From an uncultured Cohaesibacter sp. (GTDB lineage: Bacteria; Pseudomonadota; Alphaproteobacteria; Rhizobiales; Cohaesibacteraceae), in NCBI RefSeq assembly GCF_963682185.1, contig NZ_OY821667.1, positions 5,035,501 through 5,099,500 on the forward strand: DNA of 64,000 nucleotides, written 5' to 3'. Shown piece after piece: positions 1,168-9,555 of this stretch. Numbering within the stretch: position 1 is the first letter of the stretch; every line of letters starts with the position of its first letter. Below the pieces are notes generated by a model. The model did no database searches. It had not been told where the DNA came from and worked only from the letters and a program-made list of their open reading frames with translations. Made by a program: the position numbers and the translations under genes.

Positions 1168-2628
1168 ATGAGTATGGTCTATCAGCCACCCGCAAGCCAT
1201 TTTGTGAATGGGCAATATGTTGAAGATGATAGCGGAACTCCGATACCGGTTATCTATCCGGCGACAGGTGAAGAGATCGCGCGTATCTATGCGGCAACGC
1301 CTTCCATCATCGATCAGGCCATCGCTTCGGCCATGGCAGCTCAAAAGCAATGGGCTGCGCTTTCGGGCACTGAACGGGGCCGCGTGCTCACCCGAGCAGC
1401 CCATATCATGTGGGAAAGCAATCAGGAGCTTTCCGAAATTGAAACCCACGATACCGGTAAACCGCTATCCGAAACCCTGATTGCCGATGCGGCTTCCGGT
1501 GCAGATGCTCTGGAATATTTCGGCGGATTGGCCGGAACCCTGACAGGAGAATATATCCCGGTTGCCGAGGAAGACTTTGTCTATACCCGCAGGGAACCGC
1601 TTGGGGTCTGTGTCGGGCTCGGCGCCTGGAACTATCCTATTCAGATCGCCTCATGGAAGGCCGCTCCAGCCTTGGCTTGTGGCAATGCCATGATCTTCAA
1701 GCCCTCCGAGGAAACCACGCTGACTGCGCTGAAACTGGCCGAAATTCTGAAAGAAGCCGGTGTGCCCGCCGGGCTTTTCAATGTCATTCAGGGCTATGGC
1801 GAAGTCGGTGCCGCGCTTGTTGAAGACCCGCGCATTGCCAAGGTGTCGCTCACCGGTTCTGTGCCAACCGGGCAGAAGGTTTACGCCAGCGCAGCATCTA
1901 CGCTCAAACACGCAACCATGGAATTGGGCGGCAAATCTCCGATCATCATCTTTGACGATGCCGATTTGGAAAATGCCGTGTCCGCCGCAATCAATGGCAA
2001 CTTTTATTCCACCGGACAGATTTGCTCTAACGGCACGCGTGTTTTCGTGCAAAACGGCATTAAGGATGCCTTCCTTGCGCGCCTGACCGAGCGGATGAAA
2101 GGGGCCGTCATTGGAGATCCGATGAATGAGGCCACCACAATCGGTCCCATGATTTCCGAAAAACAGCGCTCCATCGTGGAGGGTTACATCAAGAAAGGCA
2201 TAGAAGAAGGCGCTCGCCTCGTCGCTGGCGGCAACGCCATCTCTGGCGACGGCTTCTATATGGAGCTGACCGTTTTTGCCGATGTGATGGACGATATGAC
2301 CATCGCGCGTGAAGAGATTTTCGGCCCCGTTATGTCGGTTCTCTCCTTCGAGAGCGAAGAAGAGGCCATCCTGCGAGCCAATGATACCGCCTTTGGTTTG
2401 GCCGCAGGCGTCTTTACCAAGGATCTAAGCCGCGCCCATCGCGTGGCAGCTCAATTCGAAGCAGGCACCTGCTACATCAACACCTACAATCTTACACCGG
2501 TGGAAGCGCCCTTCGGCGGCATGAAAATGTCCGGCGTTGGCCGCGAGAATTCCAAGGCTGCCATCGAGCACTATAGCCAGATGAAATCCGTTTACGTGTG
2601 TATGGGCGACACGGAGGCGCCATTCTAA
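1168..2628 (+). CDS. betB: Betaine aldehyde dehydrogenase
   Basis: Cytosolic NAD(P)-dependent oxidation of betaine aldehyde to glycine betaine, the second step of the choline pathway. The 486-residue length is normal for BetB. Visible aldehyde dehydrogenase residues are Asn155 in GAWNYP, Lys178 in FKPSE, the general base Glu252 in MELGGKSP and the nucleophile Cys286 in [11 protein letters not shown]. The C-terminal part has [10 protein letters not shown] and [15 protein letters not shown]. It lies five bases after betI, and its TAA overlaps the betA ATG (TAATG), so it is co-transcribed and coupled. The choline context separates it from other aldehyde dehydrogenases. Confidence 0.95.
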
Positions 2629-4283
2629 TGCAAGCTGATTATGTAATTATCGGGTCCGGCTCCGCCGGCAGCGCAACCGCTTATCGTCTCGCAGAAGCGG
2701 GCAAATCCGTCATCGTCATCGAGCAGGGGGGGACCGATATCGGGCCCTTCATCCAGATGCCTGCCGCCTTGTCCTATCCCATGAATATGCCAATCTATGA
2801 TTGGGGATTTGCCAGTGAACCGGAGCCCCATCTTGGCGGCCGCAGCCTCGTCACTCCACGTGGCAAGATCATTGGCGGGACGTCTTCCATCAACGGTATG
2901 GTCTATGTGCGCGGGCATGCTTGCGACTATGATCATTGGGATGAAAATGGCGCCTCCGGTTGGTCCTATGCTGATGTGCTTCCCTATTTCAAACGCATGG
3001 AAAACTGGCATTCGGGCGGCCATGGGGGGGATCCTGAATGGCGCGGCAAGAGCGGTCCGCTGCATGTGACCCGTGGTCCGCGTGACAATGTACTGATCAA
3101 GGCCTTTGAGCAGGCTGGCAAAGACGCTGGCTATGAAATGACCGCCGATTATAACGGCGAAAAGCAGGAAGGCTTCGGCCCACTGGAAGCCACGATCTGG
3201 AAGGGTGACCGTTGGTCATGCGTCAAGGCCTATCTCAAACCGGCCATGAAGACGGGCCGCTGTGAGTTGGTCAAAGCCTTTGCTCAGAAAATCGTGATCG
3301 AAGATGGGCGTGCCAAGGGCGTAGAGGTGCTGCGCAAGGGCAAAACCGAGGTCATCATGGCCAACAGCGAGGTGATCGTCGCTGCGTCCTCCATCAATTC
3401 CCCCAAGCTGCTCATGCTTTCGGGCATTGGGCCAGCGGAGGAATTGAAGGGGCACGGAATTGATGTGATCGCCGATCGCCCCGGCGTTGGCAAGAATCTG
3501 CAGGACCATCTGGAACTCTATATCCAGCAGGCATGCACCAAGCCGATCACCTTGTACAAATACTGGAACCTCTTCGGAAAGGGGCTTGTGGGAGCGCAAT
3601 GGCTCTTCACGCGGACTGGTCTTGGCGCATCCAACCAGTTTGAAAGCGGTGCCTTTGTTCGCTCGGCTGCTGGAGTCAAATATCCGGATATCCAGTTCCA
3701 CTTCCTGCCAATCGCCGTGCGCTATGATGGGCAAGTGGCAGCCGAAGGCCATGGTTTCCAGGCCCATGTTGGCCCGATGCGCTCCAAATCCCGCGGCGAG
3801 GTAACGCTTAAATCCGCAGATCCGAAAGAAGATCCGCGCATCCTCTTCAACTATATGTCCCATGAGGATGACTGGCGCGACTTCCGCATTTGCATCGAGT
3901 TGACCCGTGAACTGTTTGGGCAGGAAGCCTTCGCTCCTTATCGGGGCAAGGAAATCCAGCCTGGCTCTCATGTGACGAGCGAAGACGACCTCAACGAGTT
4001 CATTCGCGCCAATGTCGAGAGCGCCTTCCATCCATGCGGCACTTGCAAGATGGGCGCAAAAGACGATCCGATGGCCGTGGTTGATCCAGACCTCAAGGTG
4101 ATTGGTGTTGAAGGGCTGCGCGTGGCTGACAGCTCGATCTTCCCGCGCATCAACAATGGTAATCTCAATGGGCCTTCTATCCTCGTTGGAGAAAAGGCAG
4201 CCGATCACATCTTGGGTAAAATGCTGCCCCGTGATGAGGCTGAGCCATGGATTCACCCCAATTGGCAAAACAGCCAGCGATAG
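2628..4283 (+). CDS. betA: Choline dehydrogenase (GMC oxidoreductase)
   Basis: Flavoprotein oxidising choline to betaine aldehyde, probably membrane-associated and feeding the respiratory chain. I chose the ATG at 2628, which overlaps the betB stop by one base, over an upstream in-frame start inside betB, because [14 protein letters not shown] begins exactly at the FAD-binding strand. The protein has 551 residues. The Rossmann motif GSGSAG is at 9-14, followed by the GMC signature [18 protein letters not shown]. The C-terminal catalytic motif HPCGTCKMG is at 468-476, then [18 protein letters not shown]. Last gene of the operon, with a terminator 38 bases downstream. Confidence 0.95.
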
Positions 4284-7392: not shown

Positions 7393-8406
7393 ATGATTCC
7401 TACTTCCTCCGCTCTCCCTTTTGATGACATCTTGGCATTGCTGGACAAGATGCCGGCGCCAGATGAAGAACTGCGTGCCAAAGTTCGTGAGAGAGAGTTG
7501 TCCCTGACCAAGCCTGCTGGCTCTCTTGGCAAGCTTGAAGAACTGGCTGAATGGGTTGCTGTCTGGCAGAATCGCGAAAAGCCGCAGATTCTCCGTCCGC
7601 TCGTTGGTGTCTTTGCTTGCCAGCATGGGATTGCAAAACATGGCGTATCCGCTTTCCCGAACGAGCTGAATCAGCTGATGGTCGATAATTTCAGTCAGGG
7701 TGGCGCTGCCATCAACCAGCTCTGCACGGCCTATGATCTTGGCCTCAAGGTTTTCGACCTCGCCATTGAGCATCCAACTGGTGACATCACTGTTGAACCG
7801 GCCATGTCCGAGAAAGACTGCGTTGCGACCATGGCATATGGTATGGAAGCGATTGCTGGCGGCACTGACCTGCTGTGCCTTGGCGAAATGGGCATTGGCA
7901 ACACAACCATTTCAGCCGCTCTGTTTACGGCTCTGTTTGGTGGTTCCGCTGAAGACTGGTGTGGTCGTGGCTCAGGGGTTGACGACAAGGGCATCCAGCT
8001 GAAAGTGGATCTCGTCAACAAGGCTCTGGAAACCCACAAGGATCATCTCGACAAGCCTCTCGAAGTGCTTGCACGCCTCGGTGGTCGCGAGTTTGCAGCC
8101 ATGGCAGGTGCCGTTCTGGCTGCCCGCATCAACAATGTCCCCGTAATTGTCGATGGCTTCAACACCACTGCGGCTGTGGCCGTGCTTCACAAACTGGACC
8201 CGCGCACTCTGGATCACTGCATTTTCTCCCATTGCTCTGCTGAAGGCGCCCATCGTCGTGCTCTGGATGCCATGGGTAAAACAGCTTTGCTCGATCTGGG
8301 CATGCGTCTTGGTGAAGGCACCGGCGCTGCAATGGCTGCAGGTGTCGTCAAGGCAGCCTGTCAGGCTCATAACGGCATGGCAACCTTCGCTGATATCGGC
8401 CTTTAA
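7393..8406 (+). CDS. cobT: Nicotinate-nucleotide--dimethylbenzimidazole phosphoribosyltransferase
   Basis: Cytosolic enzyme that transfers phosphoribose from nicotinate mononucleotide to 5,6-dimethylbenzimidazole, giving alpha-ribazole phosphate for the B12 lower ligand. The 337 residues include LTKPAGSLGKLEELAEW near 40, GEMGIGNTTISAAL, and FSHCSAEGAHRRAL. The catalytic glutamate lies in RLGEGTGAAMA (Glu308). Start ATG follows AAAAGGTAGAATAAA. It is divergent from cobS and followed by a terminator. Confidence 0.95.
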   Translation: MIPTSSALPFDDILALLDKMPAPDEELRAKVRERELSLTKPAGSLGKLEELAEWVAVWQNREKPQILRPLVGVFACQHGIAKHGVSAFPNELNQLMVDNFSQGGAAINQLCTAYDLGLKVFDLAIEHPTGDITVEPAMSEKDCVATMAYGMEAIAGGTDLLCLGEMGIGNTTISAALFTALFGGSAEDWCGRGSGVDDKGIQLKVDLVNKALETHKDHLDKPLEVLARLGGREFAAMAGAVLAARINNVPVIVDGFNTTAAVAVLHKLDPRTLDHCIFSHCSAEGAHRRALDAMGKTALLDLGMRLGEGTGAAMAAGVVKAACQAHNGMATFADIGL

Positions 8407-8440
8407 GCAAACTTAGCTTAGGCATTGTCAAACCAATTCC

Positions 8441-8464
8441 AAAGCCGGCCGCGTGCCGGCTTTG
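8441..8464 (+). terminator. Terminator after cobT
   Basis: AAAGCCGGC and GCCGGCTTT arms form a stem with a short GCGT-type loop, followed by TTGTTGTGT. It lies 35 bases after the cobT stop and separates cobT from the riboswitch unit. Confidence 0.75.
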
Positions 8465-8543
8465 TTGTGTCTAGTCACAGGCAAGTCAAAAACTTTGTCG
8501 CCAGATTTACAAAAACGGGAGGGACTGCTAACCTCCTTGCAGC

Positions 8544-8651
8544 CTATCCATGTTCAGCTAGGGTTCCGCTGCCTTTGGCAGGTCTGGACCGAGCGCTGCT
8601 AAGAGCCCAAGTGGGCAGACACCTGAAAGATCAAAAGACTAGGGGGGATGG
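8544..8651 (+). promoter_or_regulatory. ykkC-class riboswitch, probably guanidine-I
   Basis: The region carries the ykkC signature elements in order: CTAGGGTTCCG at 8558-8568, GGTCTGGACCGAG at 8581-8593, then ACACCTG at 8619-8625, an AAAAG linker at 8633-8637 and a GGGGGG run at 8642-8647. CTATCC (8544-8549) pairs with GGATGG (8646-8651), one wobble, to close P1 around the aptamer. A terminator-like hairpin follows at once and the next gene is an EamA transporter. ykkC subtype 1 binds guanidine; subtype 2 binds ppGpp, PRPP or nucleotides, and the sequence alone does not fully separate them. The exporter context favours guanidine (inference). Confidence 0.85.
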
Positions 8652-8654
8652 AAA

Positions 8655-8680
8655 GGGCACGCTAGACGTGCGCCCATTTT
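8655..8680 (+). terminator. Riboswitch expression-platform hairpin
   Basis: GGGCACG-CTAGA-CGTGCGCCC forms a GC-rich hairpin with a small bulge, followed by ATTTT. It begins three bases after the aptamer P1 stem and ends about 20 bases before the EamA start codon. This is the expected place for a transcription attenuator controlled by ligand binding. The T-run is short, so control of translation is an alternative. Confidence 0.6.
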
Positions 8681-8700
8681 AGTCTTGAAAGGTTTTTCTC

Positions 8701-9555
8701 ATGTCCCTTCTTGGATTCATGCTTGTCTTGGCTGCTGCTTTTTGCCATGCCACCTGGAATTTCTTCGTTAAACGCATCAATGCCGGACCAGAACTGGTGT
8801 GGACATTCTCCGCTATAACGGTGGTTATCTATAGCCCGTTGGCGGTGTATTTTTTTCTGCAAATGCCAGCCTTCAATACGCTCAATATCAGCTTCATCAT
8901 CGGTAGCTGCATTTTGCATCTGGGCTATTTCCTTCTGCTGCAAAAAGGATATCGAACAGGAGATCTTTCTGTCGTCTATCCCACGGCCCGCGCCACAGGC
9001 CCCATGCTCTCAACAATCTTTGCTGTCGCCATTCTTGGCGAGCAGGCAACTATACAGGGCGCATTGGGCGCGCTGGTCATCATCTTCGGTGTGTTGATGT
9101 TGGCTGGTGGCTTGAAGATCAAGTCGATGGCGCAGGCAACGTCGTTGCTTTTTGGGGTTGGAGCAGGGGTGCTGATCGGTAGCTATACAGTCTGGGATGC
9201 CTATGCAGTGTCCGTGCTCGCTTTGCCGCCGTTGCTGCTCGACTATAGCTCAAGTCTCGGGCGGTCCATTCTTCTGGCACCCGTCGCAGCAAAGCGCGCA
9301 GGGTCTGTCAAAAAGATCTGGCAGGAGCATAAAGCTGGCCTGCTGGTCATCGCGATTTTCAACCCCTTGGCCTATATCCTCGCGCTTGTTGCGATGACAT
9401 TTACGCCCGTTATTTACATCGCACCTATACGTGAGGTCAGCGTTGTCTTGTCGGTCTTATTGGGAAGTTTGGTCTTGGGCGAGGGCAATTTGAAAGATCG
9501 GCTTATTTGGTCCTGCACGATCCTTCTGGGTGTGTCGATACTGGCGAGTGCCTAA
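8701..9555 (+). CDS. EamA/DMT-family transporter under a ykkC riboswitch
   Basis: Inner-membrane transporter of the drug/metabolite superfamily. The 284-residue protein has about ten hydrophobic segments arranged as two EamA repeats (roughly 1-140 and 150-284). Conserved EamA features are HATWNFFVKR in the first helix, VYPTARATGPMLSTIFAVAILGE at the end of repeat 1, and YIAPIREVSVVLSVLLGSLVLGE in repeat 2. The ATG at 8701 follows AAAGGTTTTTCTC. The preceding ykkC riboswitch suggests export of guanidine or a related compound (inference), as established for the small SMR exporters under guanidine riboswitches. It is monocistronic and converges on the kinase gene. Confidence 0.85.
   Translation: MSLLGFMLVLAAAFCHATWNFFVKRINAGPELVWTFSAITVVIYSPLAVYFFLQMPAFNTLNISFIIGSCILHLGYFLLLQKGYRTGDLSVVYPTARATGPMLSTIFAVAILGEQATIQGALGALVIIFGVLMLAGGLKIKSMAQATSLLFGVGAGVLIGSYTVWDAYAVSVLALPPLLLDYSSSLGRSILLAPVAAKRAGSVKKIWQEHKAGLLVIAIFNPLAYILALVAMTFTPVIYIAPIREVSVVLSVLLGSLVLGEGNLKDRLIWSCTILLGVSILASA

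Follow-up and report, generated by a model that had tools for sequence, protein, structure and literature searches.

A probable ykkC subtype 2d-type riboswitch in the 5' leader of an EamA/DMT transporter gene of Cohaesibacter

The question raised by this locus is which ykkC-class RNA precedes the EamA-type transporter gene, what it senses and how it acts on the gene. The leader lies within the window, by which is meant the whole stretch of 64,000 nucleotides analysed, and all features of the window described here are on its forward strand. The initial annotation proposed a ykkC-class riboswitch controlling an EamA transporter at 8544-8680, and the motifs on which it drew are present, with CTAGGGTTCCG at 8558-8568, GGTCTGGACCGAG at 8581-8593, ACAC at 8619-8622, AAAAG at 8633-8637 and GGGGGG at 8642-8647. 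On the 3' side of these motifs a hairpin (8655-8675) is followed by the EamA open reading frame (8701-9555), with a probable Shine-Dalgarno element AAAGG (8688-8692, from the sequence and the MFE fold) placed 8 nt before the start codon. The gene on the 5' side encodes a CobT-type phosphoribosyltransferase (PF02277) and we take it to be cobT. A terminator-like site following it (8440-8464), reported by a terminator scan, divides this gene from the riboswitch unit, and the riboswitch and the EamA gene look like a single-gene transcription unit. The general proposal is supported by a covariance model, by covariation and by the downstream EamA gene, and the element is most probably a 5' leader riboswitch of an EamA/DMT exporter that belongs to ykkC subtype 2d and is likely a translational ON switch, with ligand binding, the direction of control and export presumed.

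At the curated thresholds of Rfam no family reaches its gathering score anywhere in the 64-kb window. The only credible Rfam match is RF00442 (guanidine-I), which aligns to 8547-8647 at 39.6 bits (E = 7.6e-6 in a searched stretch of 361 bases) against a gathering score of 63, and in the whole 5.39-Mb genome the window RNA is the sole RF00442 match at E <= 0.001 (E = 2.7e-5). Twelve sister loci likewise give no ykkC match at the gathering threshold of Rfam 15. The initial annotation had held the absence of a ykkC model above threshold to count against a riboswitch, and formally this is what Rfam 15 returns, but no subtype-2d model was found in that library. Separate models for the ykkC subtypes were not found in Rfam 15 either, and the RNA at locus L129 is also a sub-threshold match to RF00442 (59.6 bits). 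A covariance model constructed from 25 sequences with Cohaesibacter excluded, termed R2, scores 8540-8659 at 117.4 bits (E = 1.8e-30). The element is a real RNA, far beyond chance. A decayed or accidental ykkC-like stretch with no functional switch would be in keeping with the lack of any Rfam family at gathering score in the window, and its probability is negligible when set against the compensatory changes, the co-occurrence with a gene and the 117 bits obtained with the independent model.

The predicted aptamer (8540-8659) is composed of helices P0, P1, P1a/P1b, P2 and P3. Its pairing was assessed in A3, an alignment of 68 distinct sequences fitted to a model termed R1 (12 sequences of the low-scoring RF00442 group, 11 from the same genus), a procedure that favours the R1 structure. 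Over the whole fold 96.7% of cells are paired in A3 and two-sided changes occur at 18 of 27 pairs, with 205 doubly changed cells compared with 55 in shuffled alignments, and none of 500 shuffles reaches either the observed covariation score or the doubly-changed-cell count. P1 is formed by 8555-8558 with 8595-8598 (98.5% of cells paired, two-sided changes at three of four pairs) and closes the P1a/P1b hairpin with its CUAGGGUUCCG core (8555-8598). The subtype marker, a C at 8594, occupies the position of A46 in guanidine-I and of C49 in the PRPP aptamer by our alignment. The P2 hairpin GCCC/GGGC (8605-8616) has 96.6% of cells paired and two-sided changes at two of four pairs. GACACC and the 5' strand of P3 extend over 8618-8633, and from duplex energies and the window fold this segment is predicted to be an anti-Shine-Dalgarno strand in the unliganded state. 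The GGGGGG run, G-rich in nearly all A3 rows, stands immediately before the 3' strand of P0, and the hairpin GGGCACG-CUAGA-CGUGCGCCC (8655-8675) lies between the aptamer and the Shine-Dalgarno element and overlaps the last two bases of P0.

The P0 helix joins CCUAUCCAU (8543-8551) to AUGGAAAGG (8648-8656) with one internal mismatch, pairing GGGGAUGG with CCAUGUU in the window and with CCAUGUG in the majority of the group. In A3 93.6% of its cells are paired. Two-sided changes affect seven of its eight pairs, a figure equalled or exceeded in 5 of 500 shuffles, and its doubly changed cells number 57 compared with 14.5 in shuffles, a count that none of 500 shuffles attains. An anchored structure-blind check, in which the alignment depends on the flanking anchors only and 70 of 71 rows (40 distinct) are usable, gives 26 doubly changed cells compared with 10.0 shuffled and 78.6% compared with 72.0% paired (0 of 2000 shuffles as high by either measure). 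RNAalifold places P0 in the same register with seven pairs on a separate 25-sequence alignment without Cohaesibacter. The closing stem CTATCC/GGATGG of the initial annotation is in the wrong register, as 84.1% of its cells are paired with two-sided change at one of six pairs, and its covariation does not stand out from that of shuffles, of which 115 and 450 in 500 are as high.

The relationship to guanidine-I RNAs is apparent from the scores across the class. RF00442 matches at E <= 0.01 in 31 of 385 class genomes and the matches fall into two groups, one at 62-98 bits and one at 33-41 bits, the lower group comprising four genomes with that of the window included. Searched against the same 385 genomes, R1 gives 143, 126 and 106 bits for three of the low-group genomes and no further match at E <= 0.01 exceeds 40.7 bits, and the fourth low-scoring row (L041, genome G354), which has GAGAG and ACACGG, is interpreted as a guanidine-I RNA that carries a long insertion. 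Among 398 phylum genomes R1 returns 143 bits for the window's own RNA and 91 bits for that of G587, with all other matches at or below 37.1 bits. Of the 27 class guanidine-I loci (L014-L040), 26 carry A at the marker position and one carries G, in contrast to the C of the window, and all 27 have CACGG where the window has GACACC. R2 scores these 27 loci at 12-38 bits compared with 117 for the window. In the available text of PMC6031431 the A/C marker separates guanidine gene contexts from the rest, with C in subtypes 2a and 2b, and a P0 helix is reported absent from guanidine-I; the available text of PMC5912903 describes use of the marker position to exclude guanidine-I RNAs. The initial annotation preferred guanidine as the ligand, in which case the window RNA would belong to guanidine-I and the EamA protein would export guanidinium without being a member of the SMR family. 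The RF00442 match speaks for this assignment, but its score is under the gathering value, the marker is C, ACACC replaces CACGG, P0 covaries and the genus-free model R2 separates the window from the known guanidine-I loci. Guanidine-I identity is rejected on score, marker, ACACC and P0, we consider a guanidine-I riboswitch here a very slim prospect, and guanidine itself is very unlikely as the ligand. The RF00442 score is only 39.6 bits because the RNA is a subtype-2 ykkC RNA.

The distribution of the RNA was surveyed with a core-pattern scan of 84,980 species genomes, which returned 84 stretches of which 80 were taken as loci. R1 matches 74 of the 80 at E <= 1 and 58 score at least 58 bits. 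In 55 of these 58 the RNA is followed by a homologue of the window EamA protein and in three by an MFS-like frame (L086:3942-4059, L121:902-1018 and L139:3543-3660, all actinobacterial, from Catellatospora, Rhizocola and Dactylosporangium), the test against Pfam MFS_1 being confined to the Catellatospora protein. By record title the 58 loci are mostly from alphaproteobacteria, with three actinobacteria, two cyanobacteria, two Anaerolineae, one Saccharospirillum and one 'Mesoflavibacter'. The latter (L098), named for a member of the Bacteroidota, groups with the alphaproteobacteria and has an EamA protein 65% identical to that of the window, and it is possibly a misnamed MAG. AGCG and GACACC were part of the search pattern and are therefore bound to be present in the 58 loci; all 13 A3 sequences found via RF00442 or R1 without the pattern, mostly from the same genus, have both. 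One locus among the 16 lower-scoring matches (L120:1190-1284) is an aptamer with its 3' end missing and an EamA homologue 360 nt downstream, possibly a decayed or interrupted copy. The other 15 are mostly from Firmicutes with purine or other genes and appear to be other ykkC subtypes.

This contrast in target genes bears on whether the window RNA might be a PRPP, ppGpp or NDP aptamer (subtypes 2a-2c) captured by a transporter gene; ppGpp, PRPP or a nucleotide were the alternative ligands offered by the initial annotation. By our alignment the equivalents of C49, C75, C77 and C78, together with P0, are common to both (available text of PMC6031431), and the L129 RNA, positioned 5' of a purC-like frame, reaches 47 bits with R2, above the 27 guanidine-I loci, although this locus was chosen by pattern. 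The P0 and junction sequence differs, however, as L129 has GAAAGUG with AGGUUUC, RNAs of this kind being the only ones compared. Directly 3' of the 58 RNAs there are zero purine, amino-acid or NUDIX genes, and a single transporter group is found across Pseudomonadota, Cyanobacteriota and Chloroflexota. The gene context therefore gives the alternative ligands no support, 2a-2c identity is rejected on P0/junction sequence and absent target genes, and capture of such an aptamer is improbable.

Subtype 2d, which was absent from the options of the initial annotation, is tied to EamA/phn_DUF6 and TauE genes in the available text of PMC5912903 and PMC7266159, and the latter describes it as an orphan as of 2020, its ligand then undetermined, left among the original ykkC RNAs. 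The window RNA has the ykkC fold with CUAGGGUUCCG and the CCGAG core together with P1, P2 and P3, carries C at the guanidine-I A46 position and is followed by an EamA gene related to phn_DUF6, and on this sequence-based comparison with the published prose description it would be placed in 2d. The correspondence is not complete. TauE targets are published for 2d and none is present behind the 58 related RNAs. In the available text of PMC5912903 the 2d consensus is closest to guanidine-I and 2d is not named among the subtypes with extra flanking conservation, remarks that fit the window RNA poorly because it has a strong P0 and ACACC. The CUAGGGUUCCG/CCGAG core and P1-P3 layout are shared with guanidine-I (RF00442), which differs in having A46, CACGG, no P0 and guanidine-related genes, the window remaining below its gathering score. 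With the PRPP riboswitch (2b, available text of PMC6031431) the window RNA shares the add-on helix P0, C49, ACACC and ON-switch logic and differs in P0 sequence, in target gene and in having U at the A5-equivalent position by our alignment; the published PRPP case uses a terminator, in contrast to the Shine-Dalgarno sequestration proposed for the window RNA.

A second ykkC variant (L061, L062 and L190, found by pattern in three of 297 order genomes) is located 5' of a neighbouring EamA group. It is alike in its subtype-2 marker C and its association with an EamA gene, and it differs by GCACCC, by P3 formed of GGG/CCC and by the absence of the UCCAU/AUGGA P0, with R1 scores of 34-38 bits. Other ykkC-type RNAs were encountered in the course of the searches. 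In Selenomonadales/Bacillota MAGs, subtype-2-like RNAs lie 5' of a LarAH10-type racemase homologue (L083 by search, L137 by eye) and of a PaaK-type CoA ligase (L089 by search, L087 by eye), and to our knowledge neither is a target of any ykkC subtype. Two ykkC-type RNAs lie within 1 kb of each other in Mediannikoviicoccus vaginalis (L140:1698-1800 and 2533-2643, minus strand), 5' of frames that are purE-like and purC-like by sequence. At L115:2844-3174 (minus strand) a ykkC-type RNA is followed by a sub-threshold T-box match and a frame resembling an acetolactate synthase small subunit by sequence.

In a search of 20 family genomes, that of the window included, the low-scoring RNA is present in 12, each time upstream of an EamA gene (start codons were located for the A3 rows, and for L005 and L009, which are outside A3, via the matching records L088 and L138). 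Seven of the eight genomes without the RNA, one of the eight being only 64% complete, lack an EamA homologue at E <= 1e-20, the eighth has one of 31% identity, and RNA and transporter thus occur together in the family searched. A genome of the same genus (L002, G010) has neither RNA nor transporter and instead matches RF00442 at 63.8 bits, slightly above the gathering score. Among 200 class genomes there are four EamA homologues at E <= 1e-25; the RNA accompanies all three whose identity is 56-100%, the protein of the window among them, and for the fourth, at 36% identity, none was found by R1 or by motif search. More distant relatives are common, with matches to TIGR03340 at E <= 1e-25 in 74 of 299 phylum genomes (above the curated cut-off in four of 299), and a few of these are RNA-linked. 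R1 finds no match at 30 TIGR03340 loci (L160-L189), four above the curated cut-off and 26 further matches. In a midpoint-rooted tree of 85 proteins with at least 230 aligned residues, the 56 RNA-linked proteins form one group (support 96/95) that adjoins the three proteins linked to the second ykkC variant and stands apart from 26 TIGR03340 homologues; the latter have long branches and are top hits rather than the nearest kin of the window protein, which makes the test one-sided.

The product of the putatively regulated gene is assigned to the EamA/DMT superfamily from its two repeats and its DMT fold match. PF00892 matches at 8.3e-18 in two Pfam stretches, corresponding to two EamA repeats, and the nearest NCBIfam model is TIGR03340 (phn_DUF6) at 110.7 bits (E = 1e-31), under the curated cut-off of 288.15. 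No PDB relative is found by phmmer at E <= 1. The AF2 model has a pLDDT of 91.2 and its best PDB matches are DMT folds, with LicB (7paf), TPT (5y78) and 5i20 among those from Foldseek. The predicted fold leaves undecided whether the substrate is a cation or an anion, because proteins as different as a choline importer, a triose-phosphate/phosphate translocator, SLC35B1 and nucleotide-sugar transporters are among the PDB matches. Arg188, in a predicted helix of the window protein, is present in 54 of 56 and in three of three RNA-linked EamA proteins and is outside the five commonest residues (covering 23 of 26) in the other TIGR03340 homologues, these being the top scorers of that family and not the nearest kin.

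Gene neighbourhoods were compared for the 58 RNA loci together with L120 and the window (each locus no longer than 8 kb with ends at varying distances, frames of at least 90 amino acids), and only EamA keeps a fixed place across lineages. The commonest other neighbour is an Lrp/AsnC-like cluster at scattered positions in six loci, a gene that we read from its sequence as MscS-like lies approximately 965 nt downstream in five Hyphomicrobiales MAGs, and cobT precedes the RNA only in the three Cohaesibacter entries. A ligand assignment from gene neighbourhood was set aside, as no gene but EamA is constant in place.

The expression platform is indicated by complementarity between the aptamer and the Shine-Dalgarno region. 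The 20 nt from GACACC form a duplex with their own leader (at most 40 nt before the start codon) of mean energy -13.41 kcal/mol over the 67 distinct leaders that remain of 71 rows once 4 duplicates are removed. Permutation of the leaders between loci gives -11.62 +- 0.26, and none of 10,000 permutations is as low as the observed mean. The permuted mean shows the complementarity to be largely common to different species. The gain over shuffled leaders is -5.42 at the GACACC segment and between -1.94 and +1.29 at ten other aptamer offsets, some of them overlapping. In 55 of the 67 leaders the Shine-Dalgarno core is inside the duplex, and compensating pairs occur between loci, such as AAAGAC with GUCUUU and AAGGAC with GUCCUU. 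By leader, z is below -2 in 34 of 67 and below -1 in 47 of 67, a count in which several start codons are misplaced, and the complementarity is weak in about a third of leaders. The window duplex is weaker than average (-9.7 for the identical L138 row compared with the mean of -13.4). The MFE fold of the window leader contains two pairings, GACA with UGUC from around the start codon and GAAAGAUC with GGUUUUUC, which together mask GG of the Shine-Dalgarno element and UG of the AUG. In stability this fold does not surpass shuffled sequences (z of -0.77, and 0.28 for a shorter stretch). The spacing from aptamer to start codon has a median of 40 nt (10th to 90th percentile 35-46).

The initial annotation described the hairpin at 8655-8675 as terminator-like, and control by transcription termination at this hairpin through the same aptamer has to be weighed. 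The hairpin is directly 3' of the aptamer with its two-base overlap with P0, and PRPP aptamers of the superfamily act on terminators (available text of PMC5912903). Similar hairpins are visible by eye in many related leaders, but a U-run follows in few of those listed (L131, L142 and L123 come closest by eye), and the window copy is without a U-tract. The terminator scan of 8380-8760 reports sites only at 8440-8464, upstream of the RNA and not at the hairpin, and the start-codon spacing and the Shine-Dalgarno complementarity favour translation. Terminator control is unsupported on these grounds and we regard it as unlikely.

A translational ON switch is likely because of the aptamer/Shine-Dalgarno complementarity, the spacing and the hairpin lacking a U-tract. 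The analysis shows the fold of the RNA with its P0, the subtype assignment through the sequence marker, the link to the transporter gene with which the RNA co-occurs and the complementarity itself; ligand binding, the direction of control and export are inferred. Without ligand the GACACC...AAAGAU strand, which contributes to the pocket and to P3, would pair with the Shine-Dalgarno region and keep the mRNA silent, and in the window the same pairing would also take up part of the start codon. Accumulation of the exporter substrate or a related metabolite would lead to its binding by the aptamer, which would lock the strand and P0, and with the strand held in the aptamer the Shine-Dalgarno element would be freed and export switched on. 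The guanidine, PRPP and ppGpp ykkC RNAs are ON switches according to the available text of PMC6031431.

In the PRPP aptamer, as described in the available text of PMC6031431, the 5-phosphate is contacted by two residues, the G preceding the marker C and the final C of ACACC; the penultimate C of ACACC contacts the ribose and, jointly with the marker C, holds the phosphate-side metal, and an extension of the pocket by P0 makes room for the larger ligand. By our alignment the phosphate-contact features are present in the window RNA, and the A5-equivalent is U in most of the group. As a first guess by analogy the ligand may be anionic (phosphate-, phosphonate- or sulfonate-like), a proposal with roughly even prospects, because P0, C8594 and ACACC are shared with the PRPP and ppGpp aptamers, in which the equivalent residues contact phosphate, ribose or the phosphate-side metal. 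This reading points away from the published ligand guess. No 2d ligand is named in the available text of the open-licence literature among the matches listed (including PMC10043782 and PMC12186494).

A further and more speculative reading is that RNAs with the UCCAU/AUGGA P0, GACACC and U at A5 constitute their own class, sensing an anionic metabolite that bears a phosphate, phosphonate or sulfonate, with the pocket strand serving as anti-Shine-Dalgarno and with EamA or MFS proteins exporting the anion. We hold this as a tentative possibility of rather low probability, and under it the more guanidine-I-like L061/L062/L190 group may be the published 2d. Were it true, EamA, and MFS in actinobacteria, would export an anion that has not yet been linked to a riboswitch.

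Under the subtype 2d assignment the riboswitch group is already in print as an orphan and the finding adds one such RNA. Added to it here are the P0 fold, the rejection of guanidine-I, the predicted expression platform, the distribution with an actinobacterial MFS target and the second EamA-linked variant, and these additions may already be in print. The 2d-type RNAs are unannotated at the curated threshold of Rfam 15, since no 2d model was returned for the window or the scanned loci. The 68 distinct covarying relatives with one transporter group provide a concrete test bed for the 2d orphan, and the predicted expression platform offers a simple reporter readout. P0 and the phosphate-contacting positions would make anions, in place of guanidine-like cations, the compounds to screen as ligands, and once identified the ligand would also hint at what is carried by this functionally uncharacterised group of EamA transporters.
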